Source of the DNA: an uncultured Bacteroidales bacterium
GTDB taxonomy: Bacteria > Bacteroidota > Bacteroidia > Bacteroidales > Bacteroidaceae
Direction: 5' to 3'
DNA length: 51,265 bases
Assembly: GCA_902788275.1 (NCBI GenBank)
Contig: CADAJV010000015.1
Span: 1-51,265, forward strand
Shown here: piece by piece, positions 1-51,265 of the stretch
Numbering within the stretch: position 1 is the stretch's first letter
How the letters are laid out: the number at the start of each line of letters is the position of its first letter
Program-made: the position numbers and the translations under genes
Notes under the pieces: generated by a model
The model's database searches: none
Told to the model about the DNA's origin: nothing
What the model saw: only the letters and a program-made list of their open reading frames with translations

Positions 1-122
1 CTCCGTGGAAAAATAAACTAACTCCGTGGAAAAAAAATCTAAGAGCCTCGAGCTGTCATTTTCAAGGCTCTTAGATTTCGTTTCAAGGCTCTTAGATTTG
101 GTTTCGAGGCTCTTAGATTTGG
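1..122. repeat. 21-bp module array, copy A (cut by window start)
   Basis: Consecutive 21-nt modules can be laid out without gaps: one partial at 1-18, one at 19-39, then a 34-nt centre at 40-73, then two modules at 74-94 and 95-115 in the opposite orientation. The centre is a hairpin with arms TAAGAGCC and GGCTCTTA around a loop containing GAGCTGTCATTTTC. All right-hand modules end in GGCTCTTA. Related arrays lie at 13271-13472 and 29260-29546. No gene overlaps it. The window start truncates it, so its full length is unknown. Confidence 0.85.
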
Positions 123-186
123 CTTCCACAGGACCAAATTACCCTGCATATTAAACCGTCTGTTTTTCAAGCCTTTAAGCGAAACA

Positions 187-308
187 ATGCAGGAATGTAT
201 GCAAAAAACATTTTAATTTTTTATAGGCAATGACACAAATGTTGGCGCAGAGAGAGCATGACTATTTCGCAGAGACTGTAATCTGTGCCAACTGCTATAT
301 TGTTGCCT
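187..308 (+). repeat. 122-bp terminal repeat, left copy
   Basis: These 122 bases recur as the reverse complement at 51144-51265 with a single mismatch (position 238). Inside lies a weak nested palindrome: AGGCAA near 223 pairs with TTGCCT at 303-308, and TTGGCGCAG near 243 pairs imperfectly with CTGTGCCAA near 284-292. That makes it resemble a MITE or a structured intergenic element. No protein is encoded. It lies downstream of the minus-strand lipoprotein gene that ends at 343. The element family was not recognised. Confidence 0.8.
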
Positions 309-10911: not shown

Positions 10912-12216
10912 TTATGCTTGCTCCGTCTCATATTCCTCAGCATCCTCGTCGCGTTCAAACTCTGCGTGGAAAACCTTCAGGATTTCATCCACCGTGTCGA
11001 GTTCCAGGTCAGCTTCCTCTGCCAGTTGCTCGCGAGGTACAGCCATTACCTGGCGTGCAGTCTGATAGCCGGCATGCTTGAGGGCTTCGATAATCCAAGC
11101 CTCAATCTCATCGGTAAACTCCTCCAGATAGACATCGCCATCCTGACTGTTGAGTTCCTCGTCATCAGTGTCGCGGAAGACATCAATATTGTAGCCGGTA
11201 ATCATGCCGGCCAGCTTGATATTGAGACCGCCCTTGCCAATAGCCAGCGAAACCTCCTTTGGCTTCAGATAGACCTGGGCAGACTTGTTCTCTTCATCCA
11301 GGACAATGTTGGATATCGTGGCCGGAGCCAACGCACGCTGAATGAACAGCGACGGATTGGCGGTATAGTTAATGACATCCAGGTTCTCATTGTGCAACTC
11401 ACGCACAATGCCGTGTACGCGGCTCCCCTTCACGCCAACCACGGCTCCCACAGGAGTGATGCGGTCATCATAGCTCTCTACGGCAATCTTTGCCCTCTCG
11501 CCAGGAATGCGCGCAATCTTCCTTACGGCAATAAGGCCGTCGTTAATCTCCGGCACCTCGGCCTCCAGCAGTCGCTGCAGGAACTCGGGAGCCGTACGGC
11601 TCAGGAATATCTTGGGATTATTGTTAGCATTGTCAACCTTGAAAATCACAGCCCTGACAATGTCGCCCTTGCGGAAGAAATCGCCAGGGATCTGCTGAGA
11701 CTTGGGCAGGATGAGCTCATTGCCCTCATCGTCCACCAGCATAATCTCATTCTTCCAAGCCTGATAAACCTCGCCGTTGACAATCTCGCCTACACGGTCC
11801 TTATACTTGTTGTAAAGGGCATCATGCTCCAGTTCCAGTATGCGGCTGGCCAGAGTCTGGCGCAAATTGAGGATGGCCCGGCGGCCAAACGTTGAGAAGT
11901 CAATACGCTCGCTCACCTCCTCGCCAATCTCATAGTCATCAGCAATACGCTGCGCCTCACTAAGGGCAATCTCCTTATTGGCATCAGTCACCTCGCCGTC
12001 GGCCACCACGATGCGGTTATGGTAAATCTCGCAATCACCCTTATTAGGGTTGACAATAACATCATAGTTCTCATCAGAACCATACATCTTGGCGATAACG
12101 CTGCGGAAGCTCTCCTCCAGCACGCTCACCATTGTAGCATAATCAATGTTCTTGGTTTCCTTAAATTCCGCAAACGTCTCGATTAAGCTAACAGTTTCTT
12201 CGTTTTTCTTTGCCAT
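10912..12216 (-). CDS. nusA: transcription termination/antitermination protein NusA
   Basis: Binds RNA polymerase and nascent RNA, affecting pausing, termination and antitermination. It has 434 residues. An N-terminal polymerase-binding domain is followed by an S1 domain (about residues 135-205) and two KH domains (about 235-350), with VGVKGSRVHGI and LAIGKGGLNIKLA as the KH GxxG loops. The acidic C-terminal tail (FERDEDAEEYETEQA) is typical of Bacteroidetes NusA. It is second in the operon, 158 bases after rimP; that gap holds repeats. Confidence 0.96.
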   Translation of the reverse strand: MAKKNEETVSLIETFAEFKETKNIDYATMVSVLEESFRSVIAKMYGSDENYDVIVNPNKGDCEIYHNRIVVADGEVTDANKEIALSEAQRIADDYEIGEEVSERIDFSTFGRRAILNLRQTLASRILELEHDALYNKYKDRVGEIVNGEVYQAWKNEIMLVDDEGNELILPKSQQIPGDFFRKGDIVRAVIFKVDNANNNPKIFLSRTAPEFLQRLLEAEVPEINDGLIAVRKIARIPGERAKIAVESYDDRITPVGAVVGVKGSRVHGIVRELHNENLDVINYTANPSLFIQRALAPATISNIVLDEENKSAQVYLKPKEVSLAIGKGGLNIKLAGMITGYNIDVFRDTDDEELNSQDGDVYLEEFTDEIEAWIIEALKHAGYQTARQVMAVPREQLAEEADLELDTVDEILKVFHAEFERDEDAEEYETEQA

Positions 12217-12252
12217 TGCTATATATTGTTATTGTTATTTGACAATTGGAAT

Positions 12253-12282
12253 TAGGAGTTTGGTTTACGGTTTACAGATTTG
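12253..12282. repeat. 30-bp dispersed repeat, copy 1 (nusA-rimP gap)
   Basis: TAGGAGTTTGGTTTACGG followed by TTTACAGATTTG. The same 30 bp with one difference occurs at 16821-16850 in the radA-asd gap. Both copies are in untranslated spacers between cotranscribed minus-strand genes. The rest of this gap holds TTAAGCCGATAGT, shared with the sufC-sufD spacer. Confidence 0.85.
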
Positions 12283-12374
12283 AAATTAGAAGATTTCAGA
12301 AGGTAAGAGGTTAAGCCGATAGTCATGAGTAACGGCAACTAAAACGCTTGTGCTACTTTCGAACTTTCCGGCCC

Positions 12375-12839
12375 TCAGAACTTAATCACGGCCTTCACCT
12401 CCTTAGCCTCGCCATAGGCAAGCCTGATATCCTCGTCAACCATCTTGGGCCTCTTGGCACCCTCGGGCTTGACCTTACGCTTCACCACGGCGGTAAATCC
12501 GTCATCGTCGGCAGCGCTGAGTACACCCTTGAGCCTGGTGCCGTCATTGAGGATAATGTCCACCTCATTGCCGACATTGTTAATAAACTGCTGCCGCACC
12601 TTAAAGGGCTGGCCGATACCCGCACTGCCCACCTCCAGTTCGTAGTCCTGCACATCGCGGTCCAGGTTAGCCTCTATGAACCGACTCAAATCTACGCAGT
12701 CGTCAATCCAGACACCCTCCTTATGGTCAATCTCCACCACAATGCGGTCGTCATCACTCACCGTGAGGTCAGTAAGGAAGTAGTCCCTACCCTCCAGCCA
12801 CCTTTCTACAAGGGTCGCAACATTCTGTTTCTCAATCAT
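12375..12839 (-). CDS. rimP: ribosome maturation factor RimP
   Basis: Needed for 30S subunit maturation. Its 154 residues match the family. The N-terminal domain contains the conserved pattern leading to VVEIDHKEGVWIDDCVDLSR, followed by an LEVGSAGIGQPF motif (the family's EVSSPGLDRPL element, here altered) and a small C-terminal SH3-like domain. First gene of the rimP-nusA-infB cluster. A well-formed promoter lies 86-116 bases upstream at 12925-12955. Confidence 0.94.
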   Translation of the reverse strand: MIEKQNVATLVERWLEGRDYFLTDLTVSDDDRIVVEIDHKEGVWIDDCVDLSRFIEANLDRDVQDYELEVGSAGIGQPFKVRQQFINNVGNEVDIILNDGTRLKGVLSAADDDGFTAVVKRKVKPEGAKRPKMVDEDIRLAYGEAKEVKAVIKF

Positions 12840-12924
12840 CAGTCTTTCCTATAAGTTAAGATAAGTCCTTTATGCAGAAGTGAGAAGCCCGACCTGAGGA
12901 CCTCTCACTTCCAATAGTGCGCTG

Positions 12925-12955
12925 CAAAAATACATCTTTTTTGCTTACTACCAAA
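12925..12955 (-). promoter_or_regulatory. Bacteroidetes-type promoter of the rimP operon
   Basis: On the minus strand, TTTG (12952-12955) and TATTTTTG (12925-12932) are separated by exactly 19 bases, matching the Bacteroidetes sigma-ABfr consensus TTTG-N19-TAnnTTTG. Transcription should start near 12918 and give a leader of about 80 nt. It probably drives the whole rimP-to-343 cluster. Confidence 0.85.
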
Positions 12956-13100
12956 GAAAAAGACCGTTTTTTTTGAATTGACAACCTGACGGGGTGACAA
13001 GATGACAAGTTGATAGCCAAAAATTCTGATATAATCCGGCAGCAACAAACCTATACGCAAAACCCATTCCCTGCAGCCGCAAACTAAAAGCCTTGAAACG

Positions 13101-13259
13101 AAAGGCGAAGCCTTCGCGAAGATTTCGTCGGTGGTCGCGCCGTCTTGAAAGAGGCTGGGCCTCTTTAGGCGCGGGCCGACAAAGGCGAAGCCTTCGCGAA
13201 GATTTCGTCGGTGGTCGCGCCGTCTTGAAAGAGGCTGGCCTCTTTAGGCGCGGGCCGAC
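13101..13259. repeat. 80-bp palindromic unit, two direct copies
   Basis: Copy 1 is 13101-13180 and copy 2 is 13181-13259; the only difference seen is one missing G (GGCTGGGCC versus GGCTGGCC). Each unit contains GGCGAAGCC, then a long imperfect hairpin: GTCGG and GCGCC pair with GGCGC and CCGAC, with GAGGC/GCCTC inside. A shorter relative occurs at 33220-33259. The open frame across it (13093-13347) is an artefact of the repeat. Confidence 0.85.
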
Positions 13260-13270
13260 ATTAAGAAATC

Positions 13271-13472
13271 TGAGAGCCTTGGCGGCAAATCTAAAAGCCT
13301 TGAAACAAAATCTAATCCCGTGGAAAACGCCAGCTCCACGGGATTAAAATCTTTCTTCACGGGATTAGTTTGTTTTTCCACGGGATTAAAACTTTTTTTA
13401 AGGGGATTATCTTTCGTTAAGTCCCCATTTCCCGATTTTATCTCCACGTTAGATTGTATAACGTCGCAGTTA
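13271..13472. repeat. 21-bp module array, copy B
   Basis: Modules of exactly 21 nt run 13271-13291 and 13292-13312. A 34-nt hairpin centre follows at 13313-13346 with 12-nt arms TAATCCCGTGGA and TCCACGGGATTA. Then come 13347-13367, 13368-13388, 13389-13409, 13410-13430, 13431-13451 and 13452-13472. Four units after the left part end in GGGATTA. The loop, read on the minus strand, is GAGCTGGCGTTTTC, close to the loops of copies A and C. It is intergenic, just downstream of the FAD oxidoreductase gene. Confidence 0.88.
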
Positions 13473-13510: not shown

Positions 13511-15193
13511 TTATTGATGAAGGTTACTCATTACTGCATCAGCGCAGTGCTCTCCGTCGATGGCTGCACTGACTATGCCGCCGGCATAGCCTGCTCCCTC
13601 GCCGCAGGGATAAAGTCCGCGCAGACGGACATGGTTGAGTGTTGTCTTGTTGCGCGTGATGCGCACTGGCGACGAGGTGCGTGTCTCGATGGCGATGACG
13701 GTGGCCTGGTTGGTAAGGAAGCCATGATGATGCTTGCCAAAGAGGAGGAAGGCTTCACGTAGGCGGTCGGTAAGAAAGGGCGGCATCCAGAAATGGAGGG
13801 GCGAGGCTATGAGTCCAGCGGCGTAGGAAGTGGAGGGCAGGTCGGCGCTGAGGCGGCGGTTAACAAAATCGGCCATTCGCTGCGCGGGGGCTGTCTGCTT
13901 GCGGTTGGCCTGCAGCCAGCACTGGTGCTCCAGCTCCTCCTGCAGGTGCATCATGGCGAGAGGGGCGTTAGTTGAGAGTTGATAGTTGATAGTTGATAGT
14001 TGGGAGTTGCCGCTCGCGATGCCTTCGGCATTGACAATTGAGAATTGAGAATTGCTGCTCGTGATGCCTTCGGCATTGTTAGTTGTTAGTTGAGAATATA
14101 TCTGGGGGAGGTCGTCGGTGCGGACTTCGACTACGATGCCAGAGTTGCTCCAAGGGGAGTTGCGTCGGGATGGGCTCATGCCATTGACGACTAACTGCCC
14201 GGGGCCTGATGCGGCAGGTATGACGAAGCCGCCCGGACACATGCAGAAGCTATAGACGCCCCGGCCACCGCTCTGGGCTGTGAGTCTGTACTCTGCGGCT
14301 GGCAGGTAGGGGCCGCGCCCCTCTGGGCTGTGATACATTATGCGGTCTATCATCTCGCTGGGATGCTCAAGTCTGACGCCTATGGCGAGGCTCTTGGCCT
14401 CCATCTCCACTCCCTCACGCTGGAGCATGCGATAGACATCGCGTGCACTATGACCGGTGGCAAGGATGACGGGACCGATCACCTCCTCGCCCTGGGCTGT
14501 GCGCACACCTATAACCTGGTCGGCGCGTATGATAAGCTGATCGACACGGGTCTGAAATCTGACCTCGCCGCCATGCTCTATGATTCGGTTGCGCATGTTT
14601 TCTATTACTCGCGGCAAGCGGTCGGTGCCTATGTGGGGATGGGCGGCGGAGAGGATGTCGGTGCTGGCGCCATGCTGGCAGAAGATGCCGAGTATGCGGC
14701 CAACGTCTCCGCGTTTGGTGGAGCGGGTGTAAAGTTTGCCGTCGGAATAGGCTCCGGCGCCTCCCTCGCCGAAGGCGTAGTTGCTCTCGGGGTTGACGAT
14801 GCTCTGTCGCGAGATGAGTGCTATGTCCTTCTTGCGCTGGTGGACATCCTTGCCTCTCTCCAGCACCACGGGGCGCAGTCCGAGCTCAATGAGGCGCAGA
14901 GCGGCGAAGAGTCCGGCTGGGCCGGCGCCTACGACAACGACCTGGGGGGCGTGCTCTACATGTGGATAGTCGATAATGTCATACGGACGCACGGGGGCGG
15001 GTTGGTCAATGTAGATGTTTAACGACAGGCTGACGATGACCTGACGCTGGCGTGCATCTATGCTGCTGCGCACGATTCTGACAGCTTGTATGCGGCGCGG
15101 CTCTATGCCCAGCTCGTCGGCAACACGCTGACGCAGCAGGGACTCGGTGGCTGCCACCCGGGGCGTAACGCGTATGTTGAGCTCTTTTATCAT
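13511..15193 (-). CDS. NAD(P)/FAD-dependent oxidoreductase with repeat insertion
   Basis: A cytoplasmic flavoprotein of the family often annotated as an uncharacterised FAD-dependent dehydrogenase (COG2509-like); the substrate is unknown. It has 560 residues. An N-terminal ferredoxin-like region (1-80) is followed by the Rossmann motif VVVGAGPAGLFAA near residue 88, then FGEGGAGAYSDGKL, ATGHSARD and the C-terminal GEGAGYAGGIVSAA. Residues about 367-409 are foreign: they translate the intergenic 7-bp and GCCGAAGGC repeats, giving NAEGI twice and Ser/Asn/Gln-rich runs. In relatives as I recall them, the segment before APLAMM is only a few residues long. The frame is kept, so the protein may still fold with an added loop. 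Confidence 0.88.
   Translation of the reverse strand: MIKELNIRVTPRVAATESLLRQRVADELGIEPRRIQAVRIVRSSIDARQRQVIVSLSLNIYIDQPAPVRPYDIIDYPHVEHAPQVVVVGAGPAGLFAALRLIELGLRPVVLERGKDVHQRKKDIALISRQSIVNPESNYAFGEGGAGAYSDGKLYTRSTKRGDVGRILGIFCQHGASTDILSAAHPHIGTDRLPRVIENMRNRIIEHGGEVRFQTRVDQLIIRADQVIGVRTAQGEEVIGPVILATGHSARDVYRMLQREGVEMEAKSLAIGVRLEHPSEMIDRIMYHSPEGRGPYLPAAEYRLTAQSGGRGVYSFCMCPGGFVIPAASGPGQLVVNGMSPSRRNSPWSNSGIVVEVRTDDLPQIYSQLTTNNAEGITSSNSQFSIVNAEGIASGNSQLSTINYQLSTNAPLAMMHLQEELEHQCWLQANRKQTAPAQRMADFVNRRLSADLPSTSYAAGLIASPLHFWMPPFLTDRLREAFLLFGKHHHGFLTNQATVIAIETRTSSPVRITRNKTTLNHVRLRGLYPCGEGAGYAGGIVSAAIDGEHCADAVMSNLHQ
13967..14095. repeat. composite repeat inserted in the FAD oxidoreductase gene
   Basis: On the plus strand it holds TTGATAG heptads (about 13971-14004), CGCGATGCCTTCGGCATT, TTGAGAA heptads (14036-14056), a second GATGCCTTCGGCATT and TTAGTTG units. 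These same strings occur between genes at 20144-20214 and 29701-29976. About 129 bp, a multiple of three, so the reading frame survives. Confidence 0.88.
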
Positions 15194-18100: not shown

Positions 18101-20143
18101 ATGATTTTCCCACTTGCCGACCCAAAATGGATTATATTGAGCGTGCTATGCCTCATCCTGGCTGTGCCACTGCTGATGGAACGCATCAAGGTGCCGCCAC
18201 TGGTGGGCATGGTGCTGGCTGGCATGGCTGTAGGACCCTCGGGGTTAAACATACTGGAGCGCGACAGCAGCTTTGAGACACTGGGACTGGTGGGACTGTA
18301 CTATATCATGTTCACGGCAGGCTTGTCTATGGACATAAGCGCACTTAAGAAACAGCGTACCGAGATGCTCACCTTTGGCTTGCTAAGCTTCGGAGTGCCC
18401 TTCCTGCTGGGCTACGGTGCTGCCTACTGGGGCCTTGGCATGAGCGGCGCTGCATCCATAGTGGTAGCATGCATACTGTCCAGTCATACGATGGTGGCTT
18501 TCAGCATCGCCCGGCGCTACGGCCTGTCACGCCATCACGGCGTTACGCTCTCAGTGGCCGCTACTATGCTATCACTGCTCCTCTCGCTATTCATACTGGC
18601 TGCCCTTAGTGGCTCATGGCAGGGCAGCGGCAGTGTGTGGCTGTGGCCGATGATAGCTGGTAAATGTGTCTTGATTACCGCTGCCGCACTATGGGGATTG
18701 CCCAGGCTGACGAGGCTGGCTTTCCGCAAACTCTCTGACGATGTGTTGCAGTATATCTTCGTGATGTGTGTCATGCTGTTCTGTGCAGCTGTGTGCGATG
18801 CCATGGGGCTGGAGGGGGTGCTGGGCGCATTCCTCTGCGGCCTGGTGATGAACCGATACATACCAGAAGCTGCTCCACTGATGCGCCACATCGATTTTAT
18901 GGGCAACGCTCTGTTTATCCCCTATTTCCTCATCGGCGTGGGCATGCTGATTGACGCCAGACTGATGGTGGAAAGCGTGGACGCGCTGACTGTGACAGCC
19001 GTGATAGTGGGTGTAGCCCTGCTATCTAAATGCCTAAGTGCCTTCGCCGCCGCTAAAATCTTCGGTATCGATTCCGACAGCCGCCTGATGATGTGCGGCC
19101 TCACATCAGCCCATGCCGCAGGTGCGCTGGCTATTGTTATGGTAGGGCGCAGGCTACTGTTGCCCGACGGCAGTGAACTGGTGGGCTCCGTCTTGCTCAA
19201 CGCCGTGGTGATGCTCATACTGTTCAGCTGCGTATTCAGCGCCTTTGTTACGACCACTGCCTCGCGCCGCATCAGTTTGCGCGAGGTGAGCGTGGAGGAA
19301 CAGGTAGGCGTGGAAGACAAAATGCTGGTGGCTATGTCAAGGCCGGAGTCGATGCCCAGCCTGGTGAATGCCTCCATCCTTATGCGCCCTCACCGCAGCA
19401 CGACGCCACTGGTGGGAGTGAGGCTGGTGGTGGATGCCGTGGGCAATGAACGCGAGTTGCAACAGGCTCGGCTGCTGGTGAACGATGCCGCTGCCATAGC
19501 CGCCTCTGCCGGAGTGAACCTTAAGAAGGTGGTACGCTCCAGCGTAAATCTTATCACAGGGCTCTCTCACCTTATGAAAGACTTCGAGACCTCCGAGATC
19601 ATCATGGGCTATCACCTTAGCGACGGCAAAGCAGCCGACAGCTTCGGCAGTATGACATCGGAAATGCTGGCGACCATTCCGCGGCAAATAATCATAATGC
19701 ATATCACACAGCCCCTCAACACCCTGCGTCGCATCCATGTGGTCGTGCCACCCATGGCTGAGAAAGAAACTGGGTTCGTGCGCTGGCTCAACCATGTGCT
19801 CAGGCTGGCACGACAACTGGACTGCCAGATAGCCTTCCACTGCAGCAATGAGGAATGGACACTCATACAGGAGCGCCAACGCAAACACTACGCAACCGTC
19901 AAGACTTTCCTGCATCCCTTCCGCGACTATAGCCGCATACATGAACTCAAGTCCGACATCAACGACGACCACCTGATTATCTTCATTGCCGGTCGTAGCG
20001 GCTCGCCATCATACCACCCACAGATGAGCAGACTGCCCAGCATAGTGGCCTCAGAATATAGTAACACCAGCGTCATGATTATCTATCCCGACCAGTATGG
20101 CGTGGATAATCACAACAAAGCATTCTCAACCGGAATAAAGTAA
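18101..20143 (+). CDS. CPA2-family cation/proton antiporter with C-terminal USP-like domain
   Basis: Predicted inner membrane Na+(or K+)/H+ antiporter of 680 residues. Residues 1-385 hold about 12 hydrophobic segments, with the family-type stretches PLLMERIKVPPLVGMVLAG and EGVLGAFLCGLVMN. The remaining 290 residues are soluble and look like one or two universal-stress-protein-type domains, a common fusion in Bacteroidetes. The gene stands alone on the plus strand, and its stop is immediately followed by the heptad repeat at 20144. The transported ion cannot be told from sequence. Confidence 0.88.
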   Translation: MIFPLADPKWIILSVLCLILAVPLLMERIKVPPLVGMVLAGMAVGPSGLNILERDSSFETLGLVGLYYIMFTAGLSMDISALKKQRTEMLTFGLLSFGVPFLLGYGAAYWGLGMSGAASIVVACILSSHTMVAFSIARRYGLSRHHGVTLSVAATMLSLLLSLFILAALSGSWQGSGSVWLWPMIAGKCVLITAAALWGLPRLTRLAFRKLSDDVLQYIFVMCVMLFCAAVCDAMGLEGVLGAFLCGLVMNRYIPEAAPLMRHIDFMGNALFIPYFLIGVGMLIDARLMVESVDALTVTAVIVGVALLSKCLSAFAAAKIFGIDSDSRLMMCGLTSAHAAGALAIVMVGRRLLLPDGSELVGSVLLNAVVMLILFSCVFSAFVTTTASRRISLREVSVEEQVGVEDKMLVAMSRPESMPSLVNASILMRPHRSTTPLVGVRLVVDAVGNERELQQARLLVNDAAAIAASAGVNLKKVVRSSVNLITGLSHLMKDFETSEIIMGYHLSDGKAADSFGSMTSEMLATIPRQIIIMHITQPLNTLRRIHVVVPPMAEKETGFVRWLNHVLRLARQLDCQIAFHCSNEEWTLIQERQRKHYATVKTFLHPFRDYSRIHELKSDINDDHLIIFIAGRSGSPSYHPQMSRLPSIVASEYSNTSVMIIYPDQYGVDNHNKAFSTGIK

Positions 20144-20214
20144 ATTGATAATTGATAATTGATAGTTGATAGTTGATAATTGATAGTTGATAGTTGATAG
20201 TTGATAATTGATAG
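20144..20214. repeat. heptanucleotide repeat, ten units
   Basis: Ten consecutive units of ATTGATA or GTTGATA starting one base after the antiporter stop. The same heptads occur inside the oxidoreductase gene at about 13975-14004. A period of 7 would shift the reading frame by one with each copy-number change inside a gene. Confidence 0.92.
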
Positions 20215-20232
20215 CTGACTGAGCGCGAAGCG

Positions 20233-20450
20233 CCGACTCTGCGACTTTGTGACTTTGCGACTAACTAAAAATTCCTCACTCCTAATTTCTCACGGCTTTG
20301 CGACTCTGCGGCTTTGCGACTTTGCGACTAACTAAAAACTCCTCACGGCTTTGCGACTCTGCGGCTTTGCGACTTTGCGACTAACTAAAAACTTCTCACG
20401 GCTTTGCGACTCTGCGGCTTTGCGACTTTGCGACTAACTAAAAACTCCTC
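20233..20450. repeat. 53-bp direct repeat, three copies plus a partial
   Basis: Full units lie at 20292-20344, 20345-20397 and 20398-20450, differing at about one base. A shorter relative precedes them at 20233-20290. Each unit is made of GACTTTGCG/GGCTTTGCG pieces and ends in ACTAACTAAAAACTCCTC. The last unit stops 6 bases before the lolD ATG. No promoter match is visible within the array. Confidence 0.92.
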
Positions 20451-20456
20451 ATTCCA

Positions 20457-29259: not shown

Positions 29260-29546
29260 TAACAACGACTTTAGAAAATCTAACGTGGACTTAAAAAAAT
29301 CTAACGTGGACCTTAGAAAATTTAATGTGGAGATAAAATCGGGAAATGTGGACTTAACGAAAACAGAACCCCTTGAAAATTTAAACTGAGCCTGTCGAAG
29401 TTCAAACTGAGCCCCTTGAAAATTTTTTTAATCCCATGGAAAAATAAACTAACTCCGTGAAGAAAAAATCTAAAAGCCTGGAGCTGTCATTTTCAAGGCT
29501 TTTAGATTTCGTTTCGAGGCTTTTAGATTTCGTTTCGAGGCTTTTA
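29260..29546. repeat. 21-bp module array, copy C (longest)
   Basis: Ten forward modules of 21 nt run from 29260 to 29470, with a single extra T at 29428. A 34-nt hairpin centre follows (29471-29504, arms TAAAAGCC and GGCTTTTA, loop containing GAGCTGTCATTTTC). Two identical reverse modules follow at 29505-29525 and 29526-29546. Forward modules mostly begin TAAC or TAAT and many contain an A-run near the end. Confidence 0.9.
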
Positions 29547-29700
29547 GAATAATTGAAGAATGGAAAAGTTGAAAAATTGAAGTGCTTTAAAAATTGAAAA
29601 ATGTAAGTTCTTTTTTAATTCTTCCGTTCTTAAATTCTTCAATCCTTTTTGGGTATGTGATATGTGTTTCCAAGTCTGGAAGGTTTGGAGTAAGGAGTTA

Positions 29701-29976
29701 GGAATGCCGAAGGCATCGCGAGCAGCTCATCGGCTGTCGGCGAAGCTGGTGCCGATATCAAAGAGCTGCGAGAGCGAAGCGGCAATTAGGAATTAGGAAT
29801 GCCGAAGGCATCGCGAACAGCTCATCGGCTGTCGGCGAAGCCGGTGCCGATATCAAAGAGCTGCGAGAGCGAAGCGGCAATTAGGAATTAGGAATGCCGA
29901 AGGCATCGCGAAGGCTTTCGTTGGCTGTCGGCGAAGCCGGTACCAACATATAAAGAAAGCTTGAGAGCGAAGCGGC
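29701..29976. repeat. 95-bp direct repeat, three copies
   Basis: Units start at 29701, 29796 and 29891, a period of exactly 95. Units 1 and 2 differ at only a few bases, while unit 3 is degenerate and shorter. Each begins GGAATGCCGAAGGCATCGCG, contains TCGGCTGTCGGCGAAG and ends GAGAGCGAAGCGGCA. A copy of this unit lies inside ribD (1060-1208), and its first 15-20 bases occur twice inside the FAD oxidoreductase gene. Confidence 0.93.
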
Positions 29977-30167
29977 ACAGAAATTATCAGAAATTTTTAT
30001 TCGTTTAATTTGTGTTATTCGTGTTCTTTTTAAACACAAATTTTCTTAATTAATTTGTTTGATTCGTATAATTCGTAGTTATAATCGTCCTCTTCCGGAC
30101 TTGGCAAATTTCAAATATTCTCAATTCTCAATTTTCAATTTCCTTACTCCTTTCGCCTAATTTCAGA

Positions 30168-33083: not shown

Positions 33084-33495
33084 ATTGCTGCCCGGTAAAG
33101 TTACTATCACACGTCCCCGTCTGCTACGCAGCCCCCCTCTATATCAGAGAGGGGGGCAGAAATTTTTCTGCGTGAAGATGGAATCGAAGCCCGTAAAAAT
33201 TACAAATAATGCATTCATGAAGATTTCGTCAGTGGGCGCGCTACAGGCGCGGGCCGACAAAATTCTCGCTCAAAGAGGGCTTTGCTCGAAAAAAACTTAT
33301 TCTCGCTCAAAGAGGGCTTTGCTCGAAAAAAACTTATTCTCGCTCAAAGAGGGCTTTGCTCGAAAAAAACTTATTCTCGCGAAGGCTTCGTCTTTCATTT
33401 CAATGGGATTGGTCTTAAGTATAGCGGGATTAGGACAAAACTTGGGGAAGCCTAATTTTAATGCTTCGCCTGTCGGGATTTATAAAAATTATTGC
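33084..33495. other. repeat-rich spacer before pta
   Basis: Holds CCCCGTCTGCTACGCAGC (33115-33132), also seen with one change near 36980; a GC-rich hairpin (33131-33157); an 80-bp-family relative (33220-33259); three 37-bp units (33262-33372); and a degenerate stretch with GGGATT/GGGATTA at about 33400-33435 that may be a remnant of the 21-bp modules. The open frame 33085-33498 is a by-product of these repeats. Confidence 0.7.
33220..33372. repeat. palindromic element followed by three 37-bp direct repeats
   Basis: 33220-33259 (GAAGATTTCGTCAGTGGGCG to GGGCCGAC) matches the ends of the 80-bp unit at 13101-13259 with the centre shortened. It is joined to 37-bp units at 33262-33298, 33299-33335 and 33336-33372, each with ATTCTCGCTCAAAGAGGG and GCTCGAAAAAAACTT. 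Confidence 0.92.
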
Positions 33496-51143: not shown

Positions 51144-51265
51144 AGGCAACAATATAGCAGTTGGCACAGATTACAGTCTCTGCGAAATAGTCATGCTCTC
51201 TCTGCGCCAACATCTGTGTCATTGCCTATAAAAAATTAAAATGTTTTTTGCATACATTCCTGCAT
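51144..51265 (-). repeat. 122-bp terminal repeat, right copy
   Basis: Reverse complement of 187-308 with one mismatch. It ends exactly at the window edge, so it may continue beyond. It lies 37 bases upstream of the -33 element of the last operon. Confidence 0.8.

Follow-up and report, generated by a model that had tools for sequence, protein, structure and literature searches.

Dispersed arrays of inward-facing 21-nt modules around a candidate hairpin in one genus of Bacteroidales

An uncultured member of the Bacteroidales and several of its congeners were found to carry a dispersed array element, whose typical copy consists of two inward-facing half-arrays of CTAA-N17 modules joined at a dyad able to fold as a hairpin. 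Its modules are gained and lost, its types are mixed, some copies are carried in a MITE, and copies are enriched between convergent genes. We favor, with a probability of about 45%, the reading that this is an element of one rumen Bacteroidales genus whose center persists as a hairpin, probably formed in RNA close to the 3′ ends of genes. Residence of the host genus in the rumen is suggested by related genomes of rumen origin.

The window, i.e., the whole stretch of 51,265 nucleotides that was analyzed, belongs to a genome (G000) of 93 contigs and 2.48 Mb that is 87% complete. It contains three arrays (A, B, and C), whose parts are given below together with the MITE sequences; o+ denotes the strand whose loop reads GAR..GTCA..TTTC.

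1..116, plus strand: array A, incomplete at the contig end, with side-2 modules at 1-38, the predicted hairpin center at 39-74, and side-1 modules at 75-116
1..307: right part of the MITE carrying array A, with an 82-bp terminal unit at 226-307 (final letters GTAATCTGTGCCAACTGCTATATTGTTGCC); to the left the MITE runs past the end of the contig
13270..13311, minus strand: two side-1 modules of array B (GAGCCTT and AAGCCTT types)
13312..13347, minus strand (o+ is the minus strand): predicted hairpin center of array B, arms TTAATCCCGTGGA/TCCACGGGATTAG
13348..13472, minus strand: side-2 modules of array B, of TCCCGTG type close to the center
29260..29469, plus strand: about ten side-2 modules of array C, the outer of CGTGGAC type and the inner of TCCGTGG type
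29387..29399, plus strand: TGAGCCTGTCGAA within a side-2 module of array C, an identical 13-mer being dispersed across many Bacteroidota genomes
29470..29505, plus strand: predicted hairpin center of array C, arms CTAAAAGCCT/AGGCTTTTAG with the loop GAGCTGTCATTTTC between them
29506..29547, plus strand: side-1 modules of array C, ATTTCGTTTCGAGGCTTTTAG twice
51145..51265: left part of a further copy of the MITE, at the opposite contig end from 1-307

Array B (region 10912-13472) lies between the gene of an FAD-dependent protein and a rimP-nusA pair (assigned by Pfam), with rimP about 0.4 kb downstream. It is adjoined by an 80-bp direct repeat (GGCGCGGGCCGAC...) at 13101-13260, and in several arrays (L015, L017, L019, and L026) side 1 is followed by the same sequence or one like it. 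Other minisatellites of the window, at 29693-29977, 20289-20451, 33262-33380, and 20143-20218, have units of 95, 53, 37, and 7 bp, respectively.

The 21-nt modules of the original prediction were borne out by autocorrelation: 21 was the top lag in all three arrays A, B, and C (identity of 0.713, 0.519, and 0.605, respectively), and in none of 1000 dinucleotide shuffles did any lag from 5 to 45 reach these values. The units are mostly 21 nt, but one of 22 nt occurs where the window and a related genome differ. The center of 34 nt holds at 39-74, 13312-13347, and 29470-29505 if counted from TAA to TTA (36 nt from CTAA to TTAG), the loops are as described in all three arrays, and the arms differ between copies yet remain complementary. 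That the flanking modules carry the arm of their own copy proved true of one side and not of the other: In the GAGCC/AAGCC type, modules match the arms only at the TTTTC side and the opposite side consists of TCCGTGG-like modules; in the TCCCGTG copy the side matching the arms is reversed relative to that type.

The core GAGCTGNCNTTTTC has 25 exact matches in G000 (none for the reversed control), and among the listed hits of a looser pattern about 55 separate places were grouped by eye, confirming that further copies exist beyond the window. The looser pattern consists of two modules (AATCTAA-N14-AATCTAA); as it is identical when reversed, 282 sampled family members outside the genus served as the control. 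Among 19 genus genomes it matched 90 times in G000, 139 times in the sister genome G016, and 7, 3, 4, and 1 times in G002, G007, G008, and G009, respectively, with no match in the remaining 13. Ten of the 282 control genomes had 1-3 hits, and the listed ones look unrelated. Among 57 stretches from named genomes, 40 came from the cow-rumen MAG RUG13781, which is probably G016, since a MITE copy and its flanks are identical in L039 (G016) and L201 (RUG13781). True arrays were also found in L167, L179, and L206; 12 printed stretches together with L208/L222 resembled, by eye, coding repeats or unrelated minisatellites, as did three viral hits. A phage or plasmid origin was rejected, array C as a query having given no match. 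Rfam returned only a tRNA for the window and, for eight array loci, only two microRNA models below the gathering score, in L133 outside the array center.

The arm types are GAGCC/AAGCC (A type), TCCCGTG (B type), TCGCG (C type) and, in the congeners G002, G007, and G008, mostly CTCTCG. The dyad measures 36 nt from CTAA to TTAG, or 37 nt in the TCGCG type. The module edge CTAA/TTAG is constant and the inner 7-mer is variable, and the three congeners share the layout with different module sequences; opposed halves were seen in six of the ten congener loci printed, L143, L147, L139, and L140 being without clear opposition. Some arrays have a single orientation (L114 and L117, by eye; likewise L112 and L124, which are cut by a MITE). 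In others of G000 (L084, L089, L096, L103, L109, L111, L119, and L126), several AT-rich 21-mers replace the hairpin center and the phase is retained, the half-to-half distance across them being 36 + n × 21 nt (204 in L103, 183 in L109, and 120 in L111). Of five types of these AT-rich central modules, three are more palindromic than most shuffles (21-39 of 500 reach them), and the other two are reached by 303 and 465 of 500. An inward offset of 15-16 was found in 21/25 arrays of G000, 4/7 of RUG13781, and 1/3 of the congeners that passed the filter; four of these entries have negative distances (L114, L117, window 29198, and L183) and represent motifs of the same side, and for L084 and L089 the called value of 10 was re-read by eye as 15.

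In 12 centers of four types, picked by us with L128 omitted, 13.75 of 16 positions are paired between own arms and 9.45 between arms of different types, and none of 20,000 re-dealings reached the observed value (P-value = 0.00005); this and the following permutation P-values are optimistic because the copies share descent. For the C type, 34 centers in one orientation (4 from G000 and 30 from RUG13781) were chosen from 165 rows by TAA on both arms, a length of 37 nt, and judgment of family, with L131 added by sequence and L113 and L118 (36 nt) excluded; the TAA rule inflates pairing at columns 2-4 and leaves the swap tests unaffected. By this rule, the 40 RUG13781 loci comprise 30 with a C-type center, 3 with a B-type center, and 7 with none (L169, L181, L204, L209, L211, L218, and L223). 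The C-type outer stem (columns 2-10) has 289 of 306 Watson-Crick cells versus 283.1 with right arms swapped (P-value = 0.010), and the inner stem 96 of 136 versus 86.7 (P-value = 0.0027). Columns 13/25 are AU in 30 centers and GC in 3 (P-value = 0.0008); columns 10/28 are CG in 19 and UA in 5 (P-value = 0.008), a Watson-Crick pair being absent there in 10 of 34; columns 14/24 are GU in 15, AU in 13, GC in 6, and never AC (P-value = 0.04). No pairing excess was seen at columns 15/23 (P-value = 0.78), and two purines oppose each other at the mismatched columns 11/27 in 28 of 34. In an independent count of the C type, standard pairs made up 95.5%, compared with 93.8% after shuffling, and 1 of 500 shuffles reached the covariation score; pairs with changes in both partners were no more frequent than in shuffles (2 vs. 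1.4). RNAalifold predicted the same hairpin, with 15 pairs.

Other comparisons were less favorable. In six congener centers of undefined orientation, own arms did not exceed swapped ones (P-value = 0.23), which counts against the hairpin reading. An unoriented test of the central arms, with the two sides mixed, gave P-values of 0.23-0.95 in single-type groups and 0.0016 in the pool of 42. A single long hairpin through all modules was rejected, as the right half of another array folds equally well (the own half being lower in 17/34), and modules outside the center pair no better with their own array (17/34). The compensatory change of arms around a similar loop that had been put forward is strong between types, weaker within the C type, and without excess among the six congener centers. 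As an argument for selection it falls short of proof, since template switching, or modules replacing each other in phase, could also have exchanged the arm blocks in the window.

Of the two strands, o+ gives the better fold in 28 of 34 C-type centers (mean −17.1 vs. −14.9 kcal/mol; Wilcoxon P-value = 0.00024). A better fold of one strand fits a hairpin in RNA or single-stranded DNA, the two forms originally proposed. Departures from pairing in the C-type outer stem are balanced (five G.U and five A.C cells at columns 6, 9, and 10), which leaves the inner stem and the end pair as the source of the strand asymmetry. From the pairing across types, the moderate covariation within a type and this strand preference, we infer that selection on the folded strand may keep the center; shared descent and the choice of centers weaken the statistics behind this claim.

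To place the arrays among genes, we used an ORF caller written for this analysis, which gave both neighbors for 44 arrays. Nineteen lie between convergent, 21 between tandem, and 4 between divergent genes, compared with 4, 22, and 8 of 34 array-free background gaps of at least 200 nt at the same loci (Fisher P-value = 0.0028); the 44 are not fully independent because orthologous pairs and the window/L179 pair are included, and A- and B-type MITE copies were left out. In 32 of 44 arrays the gene upstream has the same direction as o+ (P-value = 0.004), largely because of the convergent pairs; in tandem pairs o+ runs with transcription in 13 and against it in 8, which is not significant. The distance from the upstream stop codon to the center is 97-783 nt in 33 codirectional cases, with a median of 309 nt (unmoved by two distances left out, 163 and 752 nt), which is far for a 3′-UTR element. 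No called gene spans the center in the 24 rows checked.

Many A-type copies sit in a MITE with ends GGCAACAATATAGCAGTTGGCACAGATTAC, whose inner 15-mer has 92 sites at up to one mismatch, many of them at contig ends. Both window ends (1-307 and 51145-51265) are halves of MITE copies with the 82-bp terminal unit. Because many contigs end inside these elements, MITE and array copies probably account for part of the assembly fragmentation. Carriage was seen in L027, L039, L186, and the right half at window 1-307; no MITE was seen around the window arrays at 13270-13472 and 29260-29547. An 8-bp repeat, AAAAGTTT, flanks both ends of the L039/L201 copy (by eye); the other MITE copies inspected have no clear end repeat of that length, and no autonomous partner was found among the ends listed.

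Compared with the corresponding array L179 (MAG Tb.RUG.192), the window array at 29260 differs by one unit per side, with a 22-nt insertion and one 21-nt unit fewer. Nine compared pairs of G000 and RUG13781 arrays lie in the same intergenic region, with both flanks matching in L120/L212, L113/L213, and L103/L220, and one flank in L125/L214, L122/L193, L121/L176, L119/L177, L131/L188, and window:1-310/L192; these pairs give no frequency of site sharing, since all the loci compared had been retrieved because they contain arrays. An A-type array in G000 faces a C-type center in RUG13781 in L125/L214, L122/L193, and window/L192. L009 and L190 were rejected as one site because the distances disagree.

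In the favored reading, the o+ strand of the center would fold into a hairpin and the center would be retained for this fold, most likely in RNA extending beyond the 3′ ends of neighboring genes. The tandem modules would expand and contract through slippage or recombination and swap in phase, and such growth, shrinkage, and in-phase replacement would account for sequence turnover with constant geometry.

We judged an RNA hairpin past gene 3′ ends most likely, neutral turnover next, and phased protein binding third. It is quite possible that the arrays are a neutral or selfish minisatellite with an inverted junction, spread by slippage, recombination between arrays, and MITE transposition, in which nothing is selected and the near-perfect center stems from template switching or an inherited head-to-head pair of modules. 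Whole-module change of arms between the GAGCC and TCCCGTG types, variable module number, the richness of the window in other minisatellites, and the finding that only G000 and its sister are array-rich all agree with such a history, and convergent gaps may also be where insertions are least harmful. However, congeners keep the geometry with different paired sequences, arrays occupy the same regions in two species, and the inner stem has G.U and no A.C at columns 14/24, pairs that template switching would not leave.

A phased protein-binding array is rather unlikely. Here 21 bp would represent two helical turns, and a DNA-binding or nucleoid protein would read the inward sites in a BIME-like action; BIMEs bind gyrase or IHF. 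The phase is constant over whole arrays, AT-rich central modules included, and both the constant CTAA/TTAG edge with its variable inner 7-mer and the convergent-gene enrichment would suit such a protein. On the other hand, tandem duplication preserves phase without selection, and the inner module sequence is so variable between arrays that a single protein would have to bind with loose specificity. Nor is predicted curvature a general feature (values reached by 0 [array B], 12, 15, 76, and 149 of 200 shuffles, in a wedge model of approximate matrix form): The curvature that had been considered possible is strong in array B only and not in the four other arrays.

Bidirectional intrinsic terminators for convergent genes are improbable. 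The center of array B received a terminator-like score on the minus strand, where it follows the gene at 13511-15193, and T-rich tails occur on both sides (mean of 5.5 and 5.7 T in 10), in addition to the convergent enrichment. Yet a run of at least four T follows the hairpin in only 4/34 (o+) and 16/34 (o−) C-type centers, the median distance from the stop codon is the 309 nt given above, and C-type centers lack the combination of GC-rich stem, T run, and nearby stop codon. The center of array C was not called a terminator, so that of the two window arrays scanned (B and C) only B passes the pattern, and the arrays in L010, L018, L129, and L143 follow a separate terminator-like hairpin (by eye). 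Finally, a substrate for recombination or transposition that is recognized as folded single-stranded DNA, either attC-like or a REP processed by a Y1 transposase, is highly improbable: The copies are dispersed and have variable arms on a kept structure, as attC sites do, but Y1_Tnp (PF01797, Y1/RAYT) has no match in G000 (87% complete) or G016 (80%), its matches among the 19 genus genomes being in the array-bearing G002 and in G011, G012, and G017.

No named element with this layout had been known to the original prediction. Part of the layout is present in BrickBuilt of Porphyromonas gingivalis, a dispersed intergenic MITE present in about 19 copies per genome, with tandem 23-nt repeats of strain-variable number, predicted long stem-loops, no Rfam match and, in some copies, a leader and a tail bearing terminal inverted repeats (TIRs) (PMC4596501). 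In the part of that description considered here, the two have in common Bacteroidales hosts, intergenic location, a repeat near two helical turns, variable repeat number, stem-loops, and the lack of an Rfam match, and with 25 core matches the arrays show a similar dispersal. The unit is 23 nt there versus 21 nt here, and the TIRs are of IS5 type (GAGACC..., GAGACCTTTGCA-like) versus MITE ends GGCAACAATATAG..GTTGGCACAGATTAC here. That part describes direct repeats and dyad symmetry and no orientation reversal at a fixed center; moreover, for many of our arrays no enclosing MITE was seen, and the layout recurs in congeners with other modules. REP and BIME elements (GTAG and CGTC superfamilies) are multicopy short stem-loops with variable complementary stems, loop types, and head-to-head pairs (PMC3733652). 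The arrays are likewise short dispersed palindromes, but their center edges are YTAA/TTAG instead of the GTAG/CGTC tag, and the portion of that description used here contains no 21-bp phased half-arrays. A RAYT/REP identity was rejected, there being neither this tag nor a Y1 transposase match in G000 or G016. As BrickBuilt differs in unit length and TIR and REP/BIME in tag and transposase, we group the arrays more broadly with dispersed intergenic repeats.

The repeat TGAGCYTGTCGAA is dispersed in 80 of 148 sampled Bacteroidota genomes, as many as 63 times in a genome, against 0-2 hits per strand for reversed controls. Its loci, including 29387-29399 and L251-L292, sometimes have short complementary flanks, which pair at 3.88 of 10 positions versus 2.80 when swapped (43 sites, with a single locus taken from each listed genome other than G000). 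Like the arrays, in which it is also a module, it combines a fixed central sequence with variable, partly complementary flanks; unlike them, its sites are mostly scattered. A literature search on this repeat found no paper or name. FopS of Bacteroides thetaiotaomicron, a set of paralogous single sRNAs with a common seed (PMC11697453), is likewise a multicopy non-coding family of Bacteroidaceae, and neither "tandem" nor "repetitive" occurs in the main text of that source, as far as it was covered. Judged by titles and abstracts, the literature search recognized nothing on the array layout, although such a paper may exist.

Bacterial intergenic repeats are usually classed as MITE, REP, or minisatellite, and this array family mixes traits of all three. 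A broader and unlikely reading would make the arrays chromosome-wide dyad landing sites of one genus, inward-facing and helically phased, which mark intergenic regions and imply a co-evolving protein or RNA partner. Such sites would have hairpin or AT-rich centers, mostly between convergent or tandem genes, and a conserved geometry with module sequence in rapid turnover, as in eukaryotic satellite-based chromosome sites. The letters of the hairpin vary by array and its pairing is largely kept, suggesting a preserved shape, with a putative role for the fold. With constant geometry, changing sequence, and shared regions in two species, the array family makes it testable whether such repeats are passengers or maintained sites.
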